Shown: positions 40,914-51,100 of the stretch, piece after piece
Layout: each line of letters begins with the position of its first letter
Position numbering within the stretch: position 1 is the first letter of the stretch
Assembly (NCBI GenBank): GCA_004144595.1
Contig: SEEM01000007.1
Span: 1-64,000, forward strand
Reading direction: 5' to 3'
DNA: 64,000 bases
Source of the DNA: Hyphomicrobiales bacterium
GTDB taxonomy: Bacteria; Pseudomonadota; Alphaproteobacteria; Rhizobiales; Beijerinckiaceae
Translations under genes and position numbers: made by a program
Notes under the pieces: generated by a model
Databases searched by the model: none
Seen by the model: the letters and a program-made list of their open reading frames with translations, nothing else
Told to the model about the DNA's origin: nothing

Positions 40914-41297
40914 TCAGCGCGCTTCCTGAACCTCCAGGTTCCGGCCCCAGACATCGAAGAAGGCGCCCTTGTTGAGGACCAGCCGGTCCTCGCGCAAAGT
41001 AGCCTCGAGTTCGCGCAGGCGATCGCGGGCCATGGCGTCCGGCACCAGCCCGCCATCGCCGTCGCGCGTCGGGAAGAAGGCGGCGCCGTCCCAGTTCACG
41101 CCGGCGCCGCGCAGCATCAGCACGATGTCGCCCCAGTCGATATCGTCGCCGACGACATGGACGAAGGTGGAGCGCAGCGGCTCGACCTTCGGCTCGGCGA
41201 TCTTCACCAGCACGATCAGCGCCGTGAACGGGCCCTTGCGGTAGAGTTTGCCGAGCCAGCCGTCGAAATCGGTTCCGAGCCCTCTAGACGTCGGCAT
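40914..41297 (-). CDS. protein of unknown function beside tRNA-Sec
   Basis: 127 residues, no signal peptide or membrane span. Residues LGTDFDGWLGKLYRKGPF, STFVHVVGDDIDWGDIVLML and VLNKGAFFDVWGRNLEV suggest an alpha/beta fold. It lies between selD (convergent, stops 6 bases apart) and selC, on the same strand as the selA-selB-selC genes, 77 bases beyond the tRNA 3' end. That place suggests a link to selenium use, but nothing in the sequence proves it. Confidence 0.7.
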   Translation of the reverse strand: MPTSRGLGTDFDGWLGKLYRKGPFTALIVLVKIAEPKVEPLRSTFVHVVGDDIDWGDIVLMLRGAGVNWDGAAFFPTRDGDGGLVPDAMARDRLRELEATLREDRLVLNKGAFFDVWGRNLEVQEAR

Positions 41298-41364
41298 GCG
41301 GCGGACCGGGCAGGTGGCGGGCTACGCAGGCGAGGGGAGAGCTATCGGTGTCCGTCATGGCCCC

Positions 41365-43389
41365 TCAGGGAACTGGCGGAAGAGAATGGGAGTCGAACCC
41401 ACCAGAGACCGTCTGACGGCCCCTCCCGGATTTGAAGTCCGGACGCCCCACCGGGGACGTTTCTCCTCCATCGCTCGATCCGGGTAGCGGGCCGAAAAGA
41501 TCGAGCCGCCGCCGGTTGATGCGTCTCAGGTCGCCGCGGCGGATGGTGACGCCGTGACGATCGAAGAACTCTAGAATCTGGATAGCGACCTTTCGGCCGT
41601 TGTCGAGCCTGTCGCGGAACTGGGCCGCATTGAAGCCCGCCGGATGAGCTTCGGCGAGCTCGGCCGCGATGCCGACCATCTCAGCGAGCGTGCCGCGCAG
41701 GAAGAAATGGTCGAGCGCGACCTCATGGACATCGCCGCGCCGGCCGGATAGCCGCAGCAGGCGCCGGATTTCCTCCTCGGGCCGCCCCAGCATCTGGGCG
41801 ATATCGCGCACGCGGGGCGGGCGGAAGCGCTCGTCATCGGCGACGAGCGGCATGATTCGTTCCCAAAGGGCCTCGTCATCCGGCGAAAGCCGCGCTTCGT
41901 AACCCGGCCGCCTGAGCCAGGAGCCCGCCGGCACCAGCACGCCGTCTTGCGTCAGCCGCGCAAGCGCCTGCCGGAACAAGGGCGCCGGCCAGCGCGGCGC
42001 GACGGCGAAACGTAGCCGCTCCAGTCCCATGCCGGGCAGGTCGGGATGCTCGGCGTGGAAGGCGTCGAGCCGCGCCGTTGCGGCCTGCGCCAGCGCCTGC
42101 CAATGCGCGGGCAGCATCGCGAGCGGGCCGATCCTGACGAGGTCGAGCTGGTTCGTCAGGTTGTCGGCCGCCTCGGGAGCGAGCGCGCGGTCGCGGGCGA
42201 AGCCGTTGATATCGGCGTGATGCGGCGGCGCAGACAGCAGCCCATGAAGGGCCTCTGCCGGGTCGGACAGGCGGAGTGCGGCGAGCTGCGCCAGACGCTC
42301 CGGACTGCGACGCCGGCGTTCCGGCGCGCGCAGATCGAGGAAACGTCCACCGCCGATCGTGCGGGAGGCGCCGGTGTCGCGCAGCACGAAACGGTCGAGC
42401 GTCGCGGCCGCGATCGGCTCGTCGAGCACGAGCTGGATCAGGCCGTCGCCGCCCGGGTCGATCCCTTCGTTCAGCAGCACGATGCGGGCGCCGATCTCGG
42501 CGGCGGCGTGATGCAAACGGACGGGCTGCCACATCGTCAGCGCCTTCTCGCCCGGCAGCCGCGAAACCTCCGCATCGATCCGCGGCGTCGGGGCATGAAG
42601 CGCGGGCGCCAGCACCATTTCGCCGTGCCTGATGGCGTCCTTCGTGACACCGGGACCGGCGAGATTGAGCGCACAGCGCTCGCCGGCGACGCCGCGTTCG
42701 GCCGGGCGGTTCTGAGCATGGATCGAGCGCACCCGGGCCGGCAAGCCTCCGGGCGAGACGACGATGCGGTCGCCGACCGTTACGCTGCCGGACAGGACGG
42801 TGCCCGTGACCACCGTCCCGGCGCCCTGCAGGGTGAAGCAGCGATCGACCGCAAGCCGGAAGGCACCGTTGCCCTGTCGCGCCTGGGCTTCGCGAGCCCG
42901 CGCCGCGAGCCGATCGGCGAGCGCCGGCAAGCCCTCTCCGGTCAGGGTCGAGACCGGGAGCATCGGCGCCCTGGCGAAGGGGCCTGACGCCAGCAGCGCG
43001 GCGACCTCGTTCTCGACCGCCTCGATCCGGTCAGCCTCCACCAAATCGGCCTTGGTGATCGCGACGACCGCCTCGTTGATGCCGAGCAGCCGGGCTATGG
43101 CGACATGCTCTCGCGTCTGGGGCATCACGCCGTCATCGGCCGCGACGACCAATAGCAGAAGGTCGATCCCCGCAGCGCCGGCGAGCATCGTGTGCACGAA
43201 TTTCTCATGGCCGGGCACGTCGATGAAGCCGACGACCGAGCCGTCCACTTGCGGCCAATAGGCGAAGCCGAGCGCGATCGAGATGCCGCGCGCCTTCTCC
43301 TCCTTCAATCGGTCGGTCTCGACGCCGGTCAAACGCCTGACCAGCGAGGTCTTGCCGTGGTCGATATGGCCGGCGGTGCCGATGATCAT
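41365..43389 (-). CDS. selB: selenocysteine-specific elongation factor SelB, frame running through selC
   Basis: Delivers Sec-tRNA to the ribosome at UGA codons followed by a SECIS. 674 residues from ATG 43389. GTP-binding domain: [12 protein letters not shown] (4-15), DVPGHEKF (about 57-64), TKAD (about 116). Elongation-factor domains II-III follow, then four winged-helix repeats that bind the SECIS; the recognisable end is [10 protein letters not shown]. The frame does not stop there: it continues through the whole tRNA-Sec gene (giving DFKSG from the anticodon arm) and ends at TGA 41365-41367. The start overlaps the stop of the Sel1-repeat gene (ATGA). Confidence 0.95.
41374..41470 (-). 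tRNA. selC: tRNA-Sec (TCA)
   Basis: Minus strand, starting GGAGGAGAAACGTCCCC. It has the 8-bp acceptor stem (GGAGGAGA / TCTCTTCC with one G-U) characteristic of tRNA-Sec, anticodon loop CTTCAAA (anticodon TCA, reads UGA), a long extra arm (GGGCCGTCAGACGGTCTC region) and T-arm GGTTCGACTCC. CCA is encoded (41374-41376). It lies entirely inside the 3' end of the selB reading frame on the same strand. Confidence 0.96.
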
Positions 43390-44135
43390 GGCGCGGTCTC
43401 TGCGGGAGAGACGGTCGCGCGCGCGGCTTTGATGAAGGGCGCCGCGAGCGGGCTGCCCTTGCTTTCGGCCGCGAGCAACAGGGCGAGCGCCCTCGTCGCA
43501 TCCGCCGGCACGCCCTGGCCGAGCAGGGTCGCGGCGCCGAGCATGGCTTCGGAATCCGGGTCGCCGGCCGCCATGCCGCGCTGCCACCATTGCGCGGCCG
43601 CGTCGGCGTCGCGCTCCACGCCGAGCGCATCGTGATGCATCATGCCGAGCCGGGTCATGCTGGTGGCGATGCCGGCCTCTGCCGCGGCCTGCGCCCAGCG
43701 CAGGGCCTCGGCCCGATCGCCCGCATTGCCGCCTTCAAGCAGCATCCAGGAGAGCATGTCCTGTGCCGGGGCGTCGCCCTGTTCGGCAGCGAGCCGATAG
43801 AGCCGCATCGCCTCGGCATCGCTCTGCGCGACGCCTTCGCCCTTGAAGTGCAGGGCCGCTAGATTGCGCTGCCCGACCGGATCGCCGCCTTCCGCCGACA
43901 GGTTCAGCCAGCGCAGGGCGAGGGCCGGATCGCGCTGGACGCCAAGCCCCTCGGCGAAACAGGCGCCGATATTGTTCTGCGCCCGCCCGATGCCGGCATG
44001 GGCCAGCGGCCCCCAAAGCGCGAGCGCCGCCGGATGATCGCCACGCTCGACCGCTGCCGTGGCCGCGGCCATCTTGGCGGCGACATCACCATCAGGGGTT
44101 TCACCCCGGCCTAAAAGGCGCTCAAGCCAGCGCAT
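43386..44135 (-). CDS. Sel1-like repeat protein within the selA-selB unit
   Basis: 249 residues with at least four Sel1-type (TPR-like) repeats: [20 protein letters not shown] (54-73), [56 protein letters not shown]. No signal peptide, so cytosolic scaffold. It overlaps selA by 14 bases and selB by 4, so it is translated as part of the selenium operon. The name Sel1 repeat is unrelated to selenium. Its function here is unknown; a scaffold for SelA/SelB or FDH assembly is possible. Confidence 0.88.
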
Positions 44136-45528
44136 CGGGCCGTCCGGGTATCAACGCATCGAGCTGCGCCACGAACAGTGCCTCATCCTCCAGGCAGCGC
44201 AGGTCGAAGACGAGCGAGCCTTGCGCGATCCGCCCGATCACCGGCACCGGCACGGCGCGGAAGGCCGCCGCGAGCTTCTCGACCGCGGAGCCCGCAGCCT
44301 TGCCGGCCGGCCGCAGCGCAAGCCCGGCACTCGGCAACGTCTCCAGCGGCAGTGCGCCGGACCCGATCTGGCTGGCGCAGTCGATGGTTTCGACGACCCA
44401 AGCCGGCCCGACCGCTGCCGCGACCTTGGGCTTAAGGCGCTCGGCCAGCGCGCGCAGATCTTCAGCTTTCCGCGTGAACAGCCGGAGCGTCGGCAGCCGC
44501 TGGGCCAGCCGGTCGGGATCGCGATAGAGCCGAAGCGTCGCCTCCAGTGCCGCGAGCCGGAGCTTGTCGAGACGCAATGCCCGCTTCAGCGGGTTCTTGG
44601 CCAGTTTCGCGATCAGGTCCTTCCGGCCGGCGACGATGCCGGCCTGCGGGCCGCCGAGCAATTTGTCGCCGGAGAAGGTGACGAGATCGGCACCGCCCCT
44701 CAGGGCATCCTGAACTGTCTTCTCGCGGCGCAGGCCCCAGCGCGAGAGGTCGATCAGCGTGCCCGAGCCGAGATCGTCGACGAAGGGCAGGTCATGCTGG
44801 CGCGCCAGCTTCGCCAGTTCGGCCGGCTCGACCTCGGCCGTGAAACCCTGCACCACATAGTTCGAGGTGTGGACCTTCATCACGAGCCCGGTCTCGGGCC
44901 CGATCGCCTCGGCATAGTCCTTGAGATGCGTACGGTTGGTGGTGCCGACCTCGCGCAGGGTCGCGCCGGCCCGCGCCATGATGTCGGGCATGCGGAAAGC
45001 GCCGCCGATCTCGATCAACTCGCCGCGCGAGACGATCGCCTCGCGATCCCGGGCGAGGGTGTTGAGCACCAGCAGCACCGCCGAGGCGTTGTTGTTGACC
45101 AGGATCGCGTCCTCGGCGCCGGTGAGTTCCCTTATGAGGTCGCGCACATGCGCGTCGCGCTCGCCGCGCTGACCGGCTTCGATCCCATATTCGAGATTGG
45201 TCGGCGCGCGCATCGCCGCGACCACGGCCTCGATCGCCTCCTCGGCCAGCAGGGCGCGGCCGAGATTGGTGTGCAGCACCGTCCCCGTCAGGTTGATCAC
45301 CGGGCGTTGCGAGGGACGGCTCTGTTCCTCCAGCCGATCCAGCGCCATGCGACCGGCCTGCTCGGCCGATGGCGCTACCGGCCCGCCACCGGCTCGCAGC
45401 CGCTCGATCACATATCGGATCGCATCCGTCGCTGCCGCGCGCCCATGGCCCGCGATGGCGAGTTCGCCATTGGCGCTGCGCAACACCGAATCGACCGAGG
45501 GTGGGTGGAAGCGTTCGGGCTTGTTCAT
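44122..45528 (-). CDS. selA: L-seryl-tRNA(Sec) selenium transferase
   Basis: PLP enzyme that converts Ser-tRNA(Sec) to Sec-tRNA(Sec) with selenophosphate. 468 residues; NLTGTVLHTNLGRA (79-92), NNNASAVLLVLN, DDLGSGTL (251-258), and FSGDKLLGGPQAG with the PLP lysine K289. Full length for SelA, forming decamers in known cases. 25 bases downstream of fdhE; overlaps the Sel1 gene. Confidence 0.96.
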   Translation of the reverse strand: MNKPERFHPPSVDSVLRSANGELAIAGHGRAAATDAIRYVIERLRAGGGPVAPSAEQAGRMALDRLEEQSRPSQRPVINLTGTVLHTNLGRALLAEEAIEAVVAAMRAPTNLEYGIEAGQRGERDAHVRDLIRELTGAEDAILVNNNASAVLLVLNTLARDREAIVSRGELIEIGGAFRMPDIMARAGATLREVGTTNRTHLKDYAEAIGPETGLVMKVHTSNYVVQGFTAEVEPAELAKLARQHDLPFVDDLGSGTLIDLSRWGLRREKTVQDALRGGADLVTFSGDKLLGGPQAGIVAGRKDLIAKLAKNPLKRALRLDKLRLAALEATLRLYRDPDRLAQRLPTLRLFTRKAEDLRALAERLKPKVAAAVGPAWVVETIDCASQIGSGALPLETLPSAGLALRPAGKAAGSAVEKLAAAFRAVPVPVIGRIAQGSLVFDLRCLEDEALFVAQLDALIPGRPDALA

Positions 45529-48150: not shown

Positions 48151-51100
48151 CTAGCTCGTCGCCGGTCCGTTGGACGGCTCGACATTCACCAGGAACGCCT
48201 TGAACTCGGGCGTATCGGTGTTGGCATCGCCGACGAACGGGGTGAGGCTGTTGGGGCCGAAGCCCTTCTTGGCCGCACCGGTGAAGCCCCAGTGGAGCGG
48301 GATTCCGACCACGTGGACGGTCTTGCCGTCGCAGATCAGCGGCTTGATGCGTTTGGTCACCACGGCTTTGGCATAGACGGCACCGCGGGCGGATGAGACC
48401 TTCACCCAGCCGCCCTTCTTGATGTTCTTCTCCGCGGCCAGCTGTTCGCTGATCTCGACGAAGAACTCCGGCTGCAGCACCGCATTCACCCAGACGTGCT
48501 TCGTCCAGAAGTGAAAGTGCTCGGTTAGGCGATAGGAGGTCGCCGCGTAGGGGAACTTCTCCGAGGTCCCGAGCGCGGCGAGGTCGTCCTTGAAGATACG
48601 GGCGACCGGGTTGCCGCGGATCTTGGGGGCCGTGACGTTGGTGATCGGGCTTTCGAATGGCTCGTAATGGGCCGGGAAGGGGCCATCCCGCATCAGGCCT
48701 CGGGCGAACAGGCGGGCCGTTCCCTCGGGGTTCATGATAAATGGTCCGACATCGCGCGGCTTGGCGTTCGGCGCGATGTCCGGCACGTCGTAGCCGGTCC
48801 AGGCTGTGCCGTTCCACTCGATCAGCTTGCGCTTGGGATCCCAGGGCTTGCCGTCGATATCGGCCGAGGCGCGATTGTAGAGGATGCGCCGGTTGGCCGG
48901 CCAGGAGAAGGCCCAGTTCGAATAGGCGCCGGTATTGCCGGGGTCGGCCGTATCGCGCCGGGCCATCATGTTGCCCCGCTCGGTCCAGCTGCCCGAATAG
49001 ATCCAGCAGCCGCAGGCGGTCGAGCCGTCGTCGCGCAACTGGCCGAAGGTATCGACCTGCTTGCCCTTCTCAAGCACGACCTTGGTCGGGTCGGCCGGAT
49101 CGGTGACGGTGGAGACGACGTAGCCGTTGAGCTCCCTGGCGACCTCGTCGGGCTGCGGGTCCTGAGGATCGCGATAGGGCCAATGCAGGTTGACGATCGG
49201 ATCGGGGAAGGCGCCGCCTTCCTTCCGATAGAGCTCGCGCAGGCGCATGTGGATCTGCGCCATGATCCAGGCGTCGGTCTTCGCCTCGCCCGGAGGTTCC
49301 TGCCCGGGCCAGTGCCATTGCAGCCAGCGGCCGGAATTGACCAGCGAGCCCTCGTCCTCGGCGAAGCAGGTCGTCGGCAGTTCGAAGACCTCGGTCTGGA
49401 TCGCTTCCGGCTTGACGTCGTTATGGACGCCTTCGTCCTTCCAGAAGCGCGATGTCTCCGTCTGCAACGGGTCCATCACCACCAGGAACTTGAGCTTCGA
49501 CAGAGATGCCGTGATCTTGCCCCGGTTGGGGGCGGAGAGCAGCGGATTGAAGCCCTGGCAGAAATAGCCGTTGACCTTGCCCTGATGCATCAGGTCGAAA
49601 GTCCGCAGCATGTCGTAGCCGGAGACGTCGAGCTTCGGCAGCCACTGGTAGGCGAACTCGTTTTCCGCCGTCGCGGCCGGTCCCCACATCGCCTTCAGGA
49701 AGCTCACCATGAACTTCCGGTAGTTCTGCCAGTAGCTCATCTGGTTGGGGCGCAGCGGCTTGAAGCCGCGCGTCGACATGTAGGTCGAGAAATCGACCTC
49801 CCTGTCCTTCGGGATCGCCAGATAGCCGGGGATCAGATCCGACATCAGGCCGATATCGGTCAATCCCTGGATGTTGGAGTGCCCGCGCAGCGCATTCATG
49901 CCGCCGCCGCGCACACCGATATTGCCGAGCAGGAGTTGCAGCATCGCCATCGAGCGGATGTTCTGCGAGCCCTTGGAATGCTGCGTCCAGCCGAGCGCGT
50001 ACATCGACGTCATCGTCTTGTCGCGCGTCGAGCATTCCGCGATCATCTTGCAGATCGCGAGATACTTGTCCTTCGGCGTGCCGCAGATGCGCTCGACCAT
50101 CTCCGGCGTGTAGACGGAGACGTGCTTCTTCAGGAGCTGGTAGACCGAGCGCGGGTGTTGCAGCGTCTCGTCGATCTGGACGTAGCCGTCCGGCCCGAGC
50201 TCGTATTCCCAGGTCGATCGGTCGTAGTCGCGCTTGGCCTCGTCATAGCCGGTGAAGAGGCCGTCCTCGTAGGAGAATCCCTCCTTCACGATATAGGGCG
50301 CGTTGGTGAAGGCGCGCACGTACTCGTGCTGGATCTTGTCGTTGTCGATGCAGTATTTCATCACCCCGAGCAGGAAGGCGATATCGGTGCCCTGCCGGAT
50401 CGGCGCATAGAAGTCCGCGACCGAAGCCGAGCGCGTGAAGCGCGGGTCGACGACGATCAGCTTGGCGCCACGCTGGGCTTTCGCCTCAGTGACCCATTTG
50501 AAGCCGCAGGGATGCGCTTCGGCGGCGTTGCCGCCCATGATGATGACGAGGTCGGTGTTCTTGATGTCCGTCCAGGAGTTGGTCATCGCACCGCGACCGA
50601 ATGTTGGGGCCAGACTGGCCACCGTCGGTCCGTGTCAAACGCGCGCCTGGTTGTCGAACGCCAGTACTCCGAGGCTTCGCATGACCTTGTAGGTCACGAA
50701 GGCCGTCTCGTTGGTGGTCGCCGATGCCGCCAGGAAACCCGTGGTCAGCCAGCGGTTGACCGTGGTGCCGTCCTGGTTCTTGGCGATGAAGTTCTTGTCG
50801 CGGTCGTCCTTCATCAGGCGCGCGATGCGATCGAGCGCTTCGTTCCAGCCGATTTGCTTGAACGCGCGCTCGCCGGGGCCGCGATATTGCGGGTATTTCG
50901 TGCGCGTCTCGGCATGGACGAAATCGAGCAGGGCCGACCCCTTGGGACAGAGCGTGCCGCGATTGGTCGGATGGTCCGGGTCGCCTTCGATATGGATGAC
51001 CGCCGGGTGGGCGTTCTTGGACTTGTCGCCCAGGCTGTACATGATCACGCCGCAGGCGACGGAACAGTACGGGCAGGTGTTTCGTGTTTCCGTGGTGCGC

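Follow-up and report, generated by a model that had tools for sequence, protein, structure and literature searches.

The nesting of selC, the gene for tRNA-Sec, within selB, the gene for the selenocysteine-specific elongation factor, has been reported across diverse Alphaproteobacteria by Mukai, who called it a first report (Mukai, 2021, IJMS 22:4605; PMC8124441). The placing of a tRNA gene inside a protein-coding frame is rare in bacteria. It was hypothesized in that paper that processing of the tRNA leaves a non-stop selB mRNA, so that SelB and tRNA-Sec are alternatives. The same paper describes selB stop codons that overlap the next ORF ("many cases"), partial and reversed overlaps, and remnants, in which a SelB tail persists after selC has moved away, and it names an ORF1 and an ORF2 (PMC8124441). 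Two reviews repeat Mukai's proposal (PMC9312934; PMC13188914), and work on Aeromonas cites the paper in passing (PMC12685816). A literature search, with most subscription papers and all bioRxiv preprints lying outside its range, found no experimental test of nested selB-selC regulation.

Both the nested arrangement and the either-or hypothesis have been in print since 2021. What is new in relation to that paper is a comparative frame test, quantitative frame and codon tests being absent from the text of PMC8124441. The frame test points to coupling between selB and the ORF that follows, also mentioned in the 2021 paper, as an effect to be told apart from a switch between SelB and the tRNA. The locus described here lies in the window, a stretch of 64,000 nucleotides from an assembly of a Hyphomicrobiales bacterium (GCA_004144595.1, contig SEEM01000007.1). 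The reading that we consider rather probable is that nested selBC is real and widespread, that its frame is kept, most likely for the sake of coupling to the next ORF, and that the tRNA would be cut from a transcript shared with selB.

Organization of the Locus

In the window, selB occupies 41365..43389 on the minus strand (674 codons, from the sequence and the ORF table), the start being taken as the ATG at 43389; the mechanical ORF list begins the same frame upstream, at 43590. Its identity is evidenced by NCBIfam TIGR00475 over residues 1-624 (429.9 bits vs. a curated cut-off of 242.25) and by the presence of the Pfam winged-helix domains SelB-wing_2 and SelB-wing_3, the latter at residues 581-623. 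After the LDLF end, the frame continues through a stop-free spacer of 24 nt, or 8 codons (GPLPGSSD; 41470..41493, minus strand), and then through a 34-codon tail beginning at the start of selC, 32 codons of which are selC itself. selC encodes tRNA-Sec(UCA) at 41374..41469 on the minus strand, in frame 0 of selB, with G1 at 41469 and the encoded CCA ending at 41374; its 96 nt make up 32 codons, which selB reads with GGA as the first and CCA as the last. ARAGORN placed the tRNA at 41374-41470 with the anticodon UCA (tca), and Rfam RF01852 placed it at 41378-41469 (80 bits vs. a gathering score of 47).

The original prediction for this locus, made from the letters of the sequence, held that selB is free of stops before selC and reads through the whole of tRNA-Sec, and this was borne out by the sequence, the ORF table, ARAGORN and Rfam. 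The 34-residue tail from tRNA G1, containing GRPDFKSG, is likewise as predicted. The TGA had been placed 9 bases past the CCA; it does lie just beyond the tRNA, at 41365..41367 on the minus strand, but the gap is 6 nt (GTTCCC), and the figure of 9 is reached only with the TGA included. The geometry of an RNase P cut that removes the selB stop is also right, the cut falling at 41469/41470.

Ten matches to RF01852 were found in the assembly. Eight were identified by ARAGORN, with selC at 41374-41469 as the sole tRNA-Sec among them, and the remaining two scored 31.6 and 30.6 bits, under the gathering score of 47. This is the only recognized selC of the genome. Among seven sampled genomes of the same genus, a tRNA-Sec match above 52 bits was found only in that of the window, the others being judged by score alone, and from these sequence matches the Sec trait looks patchy in the genus.

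The genes around selB form a compact row of fdhE, selA (44122..45528, minus strand; TIGR00474, 577.5 bits), a Sel1-repeat protein gene (43386..44135, minus strand; Pfam PF08238) whose stop overlaps the selB start (ATGA), selB with selC inside, and ORF1, with selD on the other strand. The label ORF1 is used here for the next ORF after selB, at 40914..41297 on the minus strand (127 aa, from the ORF table), and this may be either ORF1 or ORF2 of PMC8124441. Its 127-aa product had no match in Pfam or NCBIfam profile searches. The ORF1 start is 70 nt away from the selB stop, and the two do not overlap. Further along the window, a SECIS element lies at 50582..50640 on the minus strand (Rfam RF01989, 84.5 bits), and a UGA codon was read from the sequence within it, at 50637-50635 (minus strand). 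The protein context of this UGA is one that we take to be typical of Sec formate dehydrogenases. A tmRNA is present in the genome.

Loci Sampled and Distribution of the Nested State

Loci for comparison were anchored on selC, taking tRNA-Sec matches with E ≤ 1e-11 in samples of the order, the class, the phylum and four further families, together with the best matches, 28 loci in all, from sampled genomes of the family to which the window belongs (the match checked after these being a tRNA-Ser), which gave a total of 249 loci with that of the window included. Of these, 80 are nested, 78 have a selB that stops before selC, five have one that stops inside it, one has a far selB, and 85 are without a recognizable selB directly upstream, a class that may include divergent selB genes missed with the query used. 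Within the own family, 15 of the 28 loci are nested, five stop before selC and eight have no recognizable selB directly upstream.

The main count was made on the 107 loci of the window's SelB type that were kept, for which SelB identity ≥ 48% and an aligned LDLF end were required; selB has selC nested in it in 79 of them, stops short of selC in 25 and stops inside it in three. The loci dropped despite having selB upstream were one nested locus (L262, in frame 1), two stop-inside loci (L071 and L287), 53 stop-before loci (50 for identity and three for the alignment end) and the far one. The tRNA measures 96 nt in all 79 kept nested loci. The best named matches to the SelB of the window, from Bosea thiooxidans (79% identity) and Bosea sp. 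UNC402CLCol (80%), are both nested, and they suggest that the window most likely derives from a Bosea.

A secondary set consisted of named loci, the best 80 of 555, ranked by a match that included the SelB tail. tRNA-Sec was found in 77 of the 80, comprising 55 nested, 15 stop-before, five stop-inside and two far loci, and one of the nested loci (L146) has a 95-nt tRNA. A first set mixed these loci with selC-anchored ones. Since ranking with the tail favors nested loci, the frame test was made on the selC-anchored loci only, and the mixed set is treated as secondary.

Stops before selC in most relatives had been named beforehand as the outcome that would speak against the original prediction, and this is not what was found, with 79 of the 107 loci nested and 25 stopping before selC. 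The 25 loci that stop before selC and the three that stop inside it imply that the nested trait is dispensable. At least 16 changes of state occurred on the tree of the 107 loci.

The Reading Frame Through the Spacer and selC

In the nested loci, the spacer between the LDLF of the last SelB domain and selC takes 23 different lengths, ranging from 18 to 111 nt, and in each of the 79 its length is divisible by three, even though it changed at least 49 times on a FastTree tree of SelB. Spacer remainders of 0, 1 and 2 are distributed 5/10/10 among the 25 stop-before loci and 1/1/1 among the three stop-inside loci. Pairs of loci with unequal spacers were counted as independent when their paths on the tree did not overlap, and such pairs differed by a multiple of three in 31 of 31 nested cases (p = 1.6e-15 against 1/3) and in 4 of 11 stop-before cases; with the biased secondary set added, the corresponding figures are 41 of 41 and 7 of 17. 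Over the whole tree there are 17 remainder changes among 74 spacer changes, and the loci concerned stop before or inside selC. Frame 0 is used in 79 of the 80 selC-anchored nested loci and in all 55 nested loci of the secondary set.

The one locus that reads frame 1 (L262) has its shift inside the last SelB winged-helix domain, the stretch from LDLF to selC being in frame 0. In L264 and L265, which belong to the same genus, nesting is in frame 0. The frameshift may be either a recent mutation or an assembly error.

Openness of the tRNA is cheap, as the other frames usually clear selC too. Among 65 distinct nested tRNAs, frame 1 is also open in 60 and frame 2 in 62, and reading from G1, these two frames clear the tRNA in 70 and 74, respectively, of the 77 nested loci of the first, mixed set. 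When nested tRNAs were subjected to mononucleotide shuffling, 44% of the shuffles were open, and when frameshifting deletions were simulated in the spacer, 81% of them would leave a frame that clears selC. Among distinct tRNA-Sec, frame 0 is open in 48 of 65 from stop-before loci and in 39 of 55 from loci without selB upstream. Chance openness was rejected as a sign of function, tRNA-Sec being usually open in several frames. The spacer is kept in threes although openness is cheap, which argues that the register, and not just the overlap, is selected. At the level of sequence comparison, these results show that the register through the spacer and selC is kept by selection in the relatives. With the frame test, what had been a plausible account becomes a claim that can be measured, namely that it is the register, and not overlap alone, that is under selection.

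It might be held that the selB stop was lost neutrally, tRNA-Sec being naturally stop-poor and the run-through harmless and meaningless. The frequent openness of frame 0 in non-nested tRNA-Sec, in the counts just given for stop-before loci and loci without selB upstream, would agree with this, as would a tail with very low predicted confidence and without codon-level selection. Neutrality predicts, however, that around two thirds of spacer indels shift the frame, and none do so in the 79 nested loci or the 31 independent pairs, whilst the stop-before controls do behave neutrally and frameshifted loci stop before or inside selC. Such a reading appears highly unlikely, and is already contradicted by the frame test, unless indels in threes only were to arise by mutation in nested loci alone.

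The Tail Peptide

The SelB tail could also be thought to be a functional C-terminal peptide. The residues of the tail are conserved across 24 aligned SelB proteins, and remnant tails outlast the departure of selC (PMC8124441), although the conservation is accounted for by the tRNA. For the codon test, single-base codon changes were followed along minimum spanning trees of the tRNA sequences from both locus sets, with 89 distinct nested tRNAs. Of 83 distinct non-nested tRNAs, the 53 with 96 nt, CCA and no more than 20 differences from a nested tRNA served as controls. The synonymous share inside the tRNA was 56/208 in the nested tRNAs vs. 53/147 in the controls (Fisher p 0.08), a trend that runs counter to protein selection. 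As the synonymous share is not raised in comparison with non-nested tRNA-Sec, there is no sign of protein-level selection on the tail.

AlphaFold2, run on the 24 aligned SelB proteins, gave a pLDDT < 50 for residues 637-674, a very low predicted order, and the tail is absent in 25 of the 107 loci. A folded or selected tail peptide was rejected on the codon test and the very low AlphaFold2 confidence, and a functional tail is hardly credible. The SelB tail is probably disordered, an untailored by-product of the tRNA sequence.

Probable Coupling to the Next ORF

Translational coupling to the next ORF appears to be the likeliest cause of the frame constraint, given that in 48 of the 79 nested loci SelB terminates on the start of the ORF that follows. 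Across 134 nested loci from both sets, the median frame-0 stop lies 20 nt beyond selC (IQR 18-30), and in eight loci the distance exceeds 60 nt. In frame 1 the median stop lies 101.5 nt past selC, and in frame 2 it lies 297.5 nt past it; distances above 60 nt were found for these frames in 87 and 99 of the 134 loci, respectively, and stops inside the tRNA in eight loci each. The overlap is an NTGA in which the SelB stop and the first codon of an ORF at least 60 aa long coincide, and it is present in 48 of 79 selC-anchored nested loci vs. 3 of 25 stop-before loci, and a homolog of ORF1 follows selBC in 51 of 79 vs. 6 of 25.

Ribosomes finishing SelB would be expected to read through the tRNA sequence and to stop just past selC. 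Under coupling, frame 0 would bring the ribosome to a stop near the start of the next ORF, often in an overlapping NTGA, and the other frames would usually run well past that start. Co-transcription of selB and selC is assumed, with tRNA-Sec probably being cut from the same transcript. With every cut, the selB message concerned would be lost and ORF1 parted from it, and non-stop ribosomes would be left for tmRNA to clear. The destruction of the selB message by tRNA release follows from the geometry; a regulatory role for it is hypothetical.

There are, nevertheless, 29 nested loci of the 79 without a coupled start, and the eight of 134 whose frame-0 stop lies far past selC also speak against this reading. 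Clades made up solely of such uncoupled nested loci show six spacer changes, all in threes, which coupling as the sole cause would not explain. Direct coupling is also absent in the window, where ORF1 starts at a distance from the selB stop. A mini-ORF of 24 codons, read from the sequence at 41284..41358 on the minus strand, begins 6 nt beyond the selB stop and reaches 14 nt into ORF1, across its start; that it bridges the gap and relays translational coupling from selB to ORF1 is speculation. In Bosea thiooxidans (L089), selBC is followed by a different ORF than in the window, one of 155 codons that begins 9 nt past the first base of the selB stop codon, and the ORF1 homolog is found ∼460 nt downstream.

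The Proposed Either-Or Switch and the Presumed Release of tRNA-Sec

In the selected switch put forward by Mukai (2021) and again in the original prediction, each transcript would yield SelB or tRNA-Sec, with the cut setting the ratio. The position of the stop beyond the tRNA is suited to this, and the cloverleaf of tRNA-Sec is present in the fold predicted for the co-transcript, which means that RNase P could cut tRNA-Sec out of it. A tmRNA is available in the genome, and the frame is also retained in the clades without a coupled next start. However, a switch needs only a stop after the cut site, for which other frames suffice in the 81% of simulated deletions, yet frame 0 is kept; in addition, the nested state changed repeatedly on the tree, and SelB can be made before the cut. 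For this last reason, the statement in the original prediction that the tRNA and full SelB from one transcript "exclude each other" was too strong. None of the results obtained from these sequences speaks for feedback regulation itself. The frame constraint is explained at least equally well by coupling between selB and the next ORF, and a selected switch seems rather unlikely. Unusual folding stability of the selB-selC region was considered separately and rejected (z 0.15).

A tentative alternative is competing ribosome traffic, in which the translation of selC in order to reach the next ORF blocks folding or cutting of the tRNA, so that the output of SelB and ORF1 and that of tRNA-Sec would compete on every transcript. 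If this were true, the conserved register would be the trace of a tRNA gene selected as a translated sequence, with its amino acids unselected.

It may also be that selC has a promoter of its own within selB, the overlap being compatible with independent expression; this is not exclusive with the other readings. Support for it is indirect, in that selB is not recognizable directly upstream in 85 of the 249 selC-anchored loci (where divergent selB may be missed), so that other lineages presumably transcribe selC separately from selB. A sigma-70 consensus scan of 41200-43500 found no sites, with 0.1 expected, and synonymous-site conservation over the last 160 selB codons, examined in 118 nested and 38 stop-before rows, formed no conserved block and did not peak towards the end, both being weak tests in a GC-rich alphaproteobacterium. 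A conserved internal promoter or RNA element detectable as synonymous constraint was rejected, there being no such peak near the selB end. Expression from an internal promoter is viewed as rather doubtful. Coupling to the next ORF is retained as the preferred reading of the frame constraint.

Comparison With Known Systems

As in the nested loci described by Mukai (2021), the window has a whole tRNA-Sec within the selB ORF on the same strand. Its tRNA is 96 nt (96 or 93 nt there), its tail starts with Gly (GGA) and ends with Pro (CCA), and its selBC is near selA and a Sel1-like gene. Unlike "many cases" in that paper, the selB stop of the window does not overlap the next ORF, an overlap that is common there but not obligatory. 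Bosea is not mentioned in the text of PMC8124441.

In the partial overlap of Dyella and Luteibacter (PMC8124441), selB enters selC in the same frame as in the window, but stops at tRNA nt 46-48. Entry into selC in frame 0 with a stop at the TGA of tRNA nt 46-48 was seen among the sampled loci in L041, L119 and L151, and also in L140 and L149. Besides Dyella and Luteibacter, this stop is found in loci labeled Mesorhizobium atlanticum (L151) and Candidatus Eremiobacteraeota (L119) and in a genome of the window's order (L041). Of 120 distinct tRNA-Sec from stop-before loci and loci without selB upstream, 21 have this same TGA as their earliest stop in frame 0.

Autoregulation of SelB in E. coli presumably acts through a leader element. 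It also limits the level of SelB, there without a tRNA gene in the ORF (reference 26 of PMC8124441). The mitochondrial tRNA-Lys inside cox1 of Armadillidium vulgare, as told in PMC8124441, is likewise a tRNA that lies wholly in a coding region in direct orientation, and differs from the locus of the window in being mitochondrial and in belonging to a compact genome.
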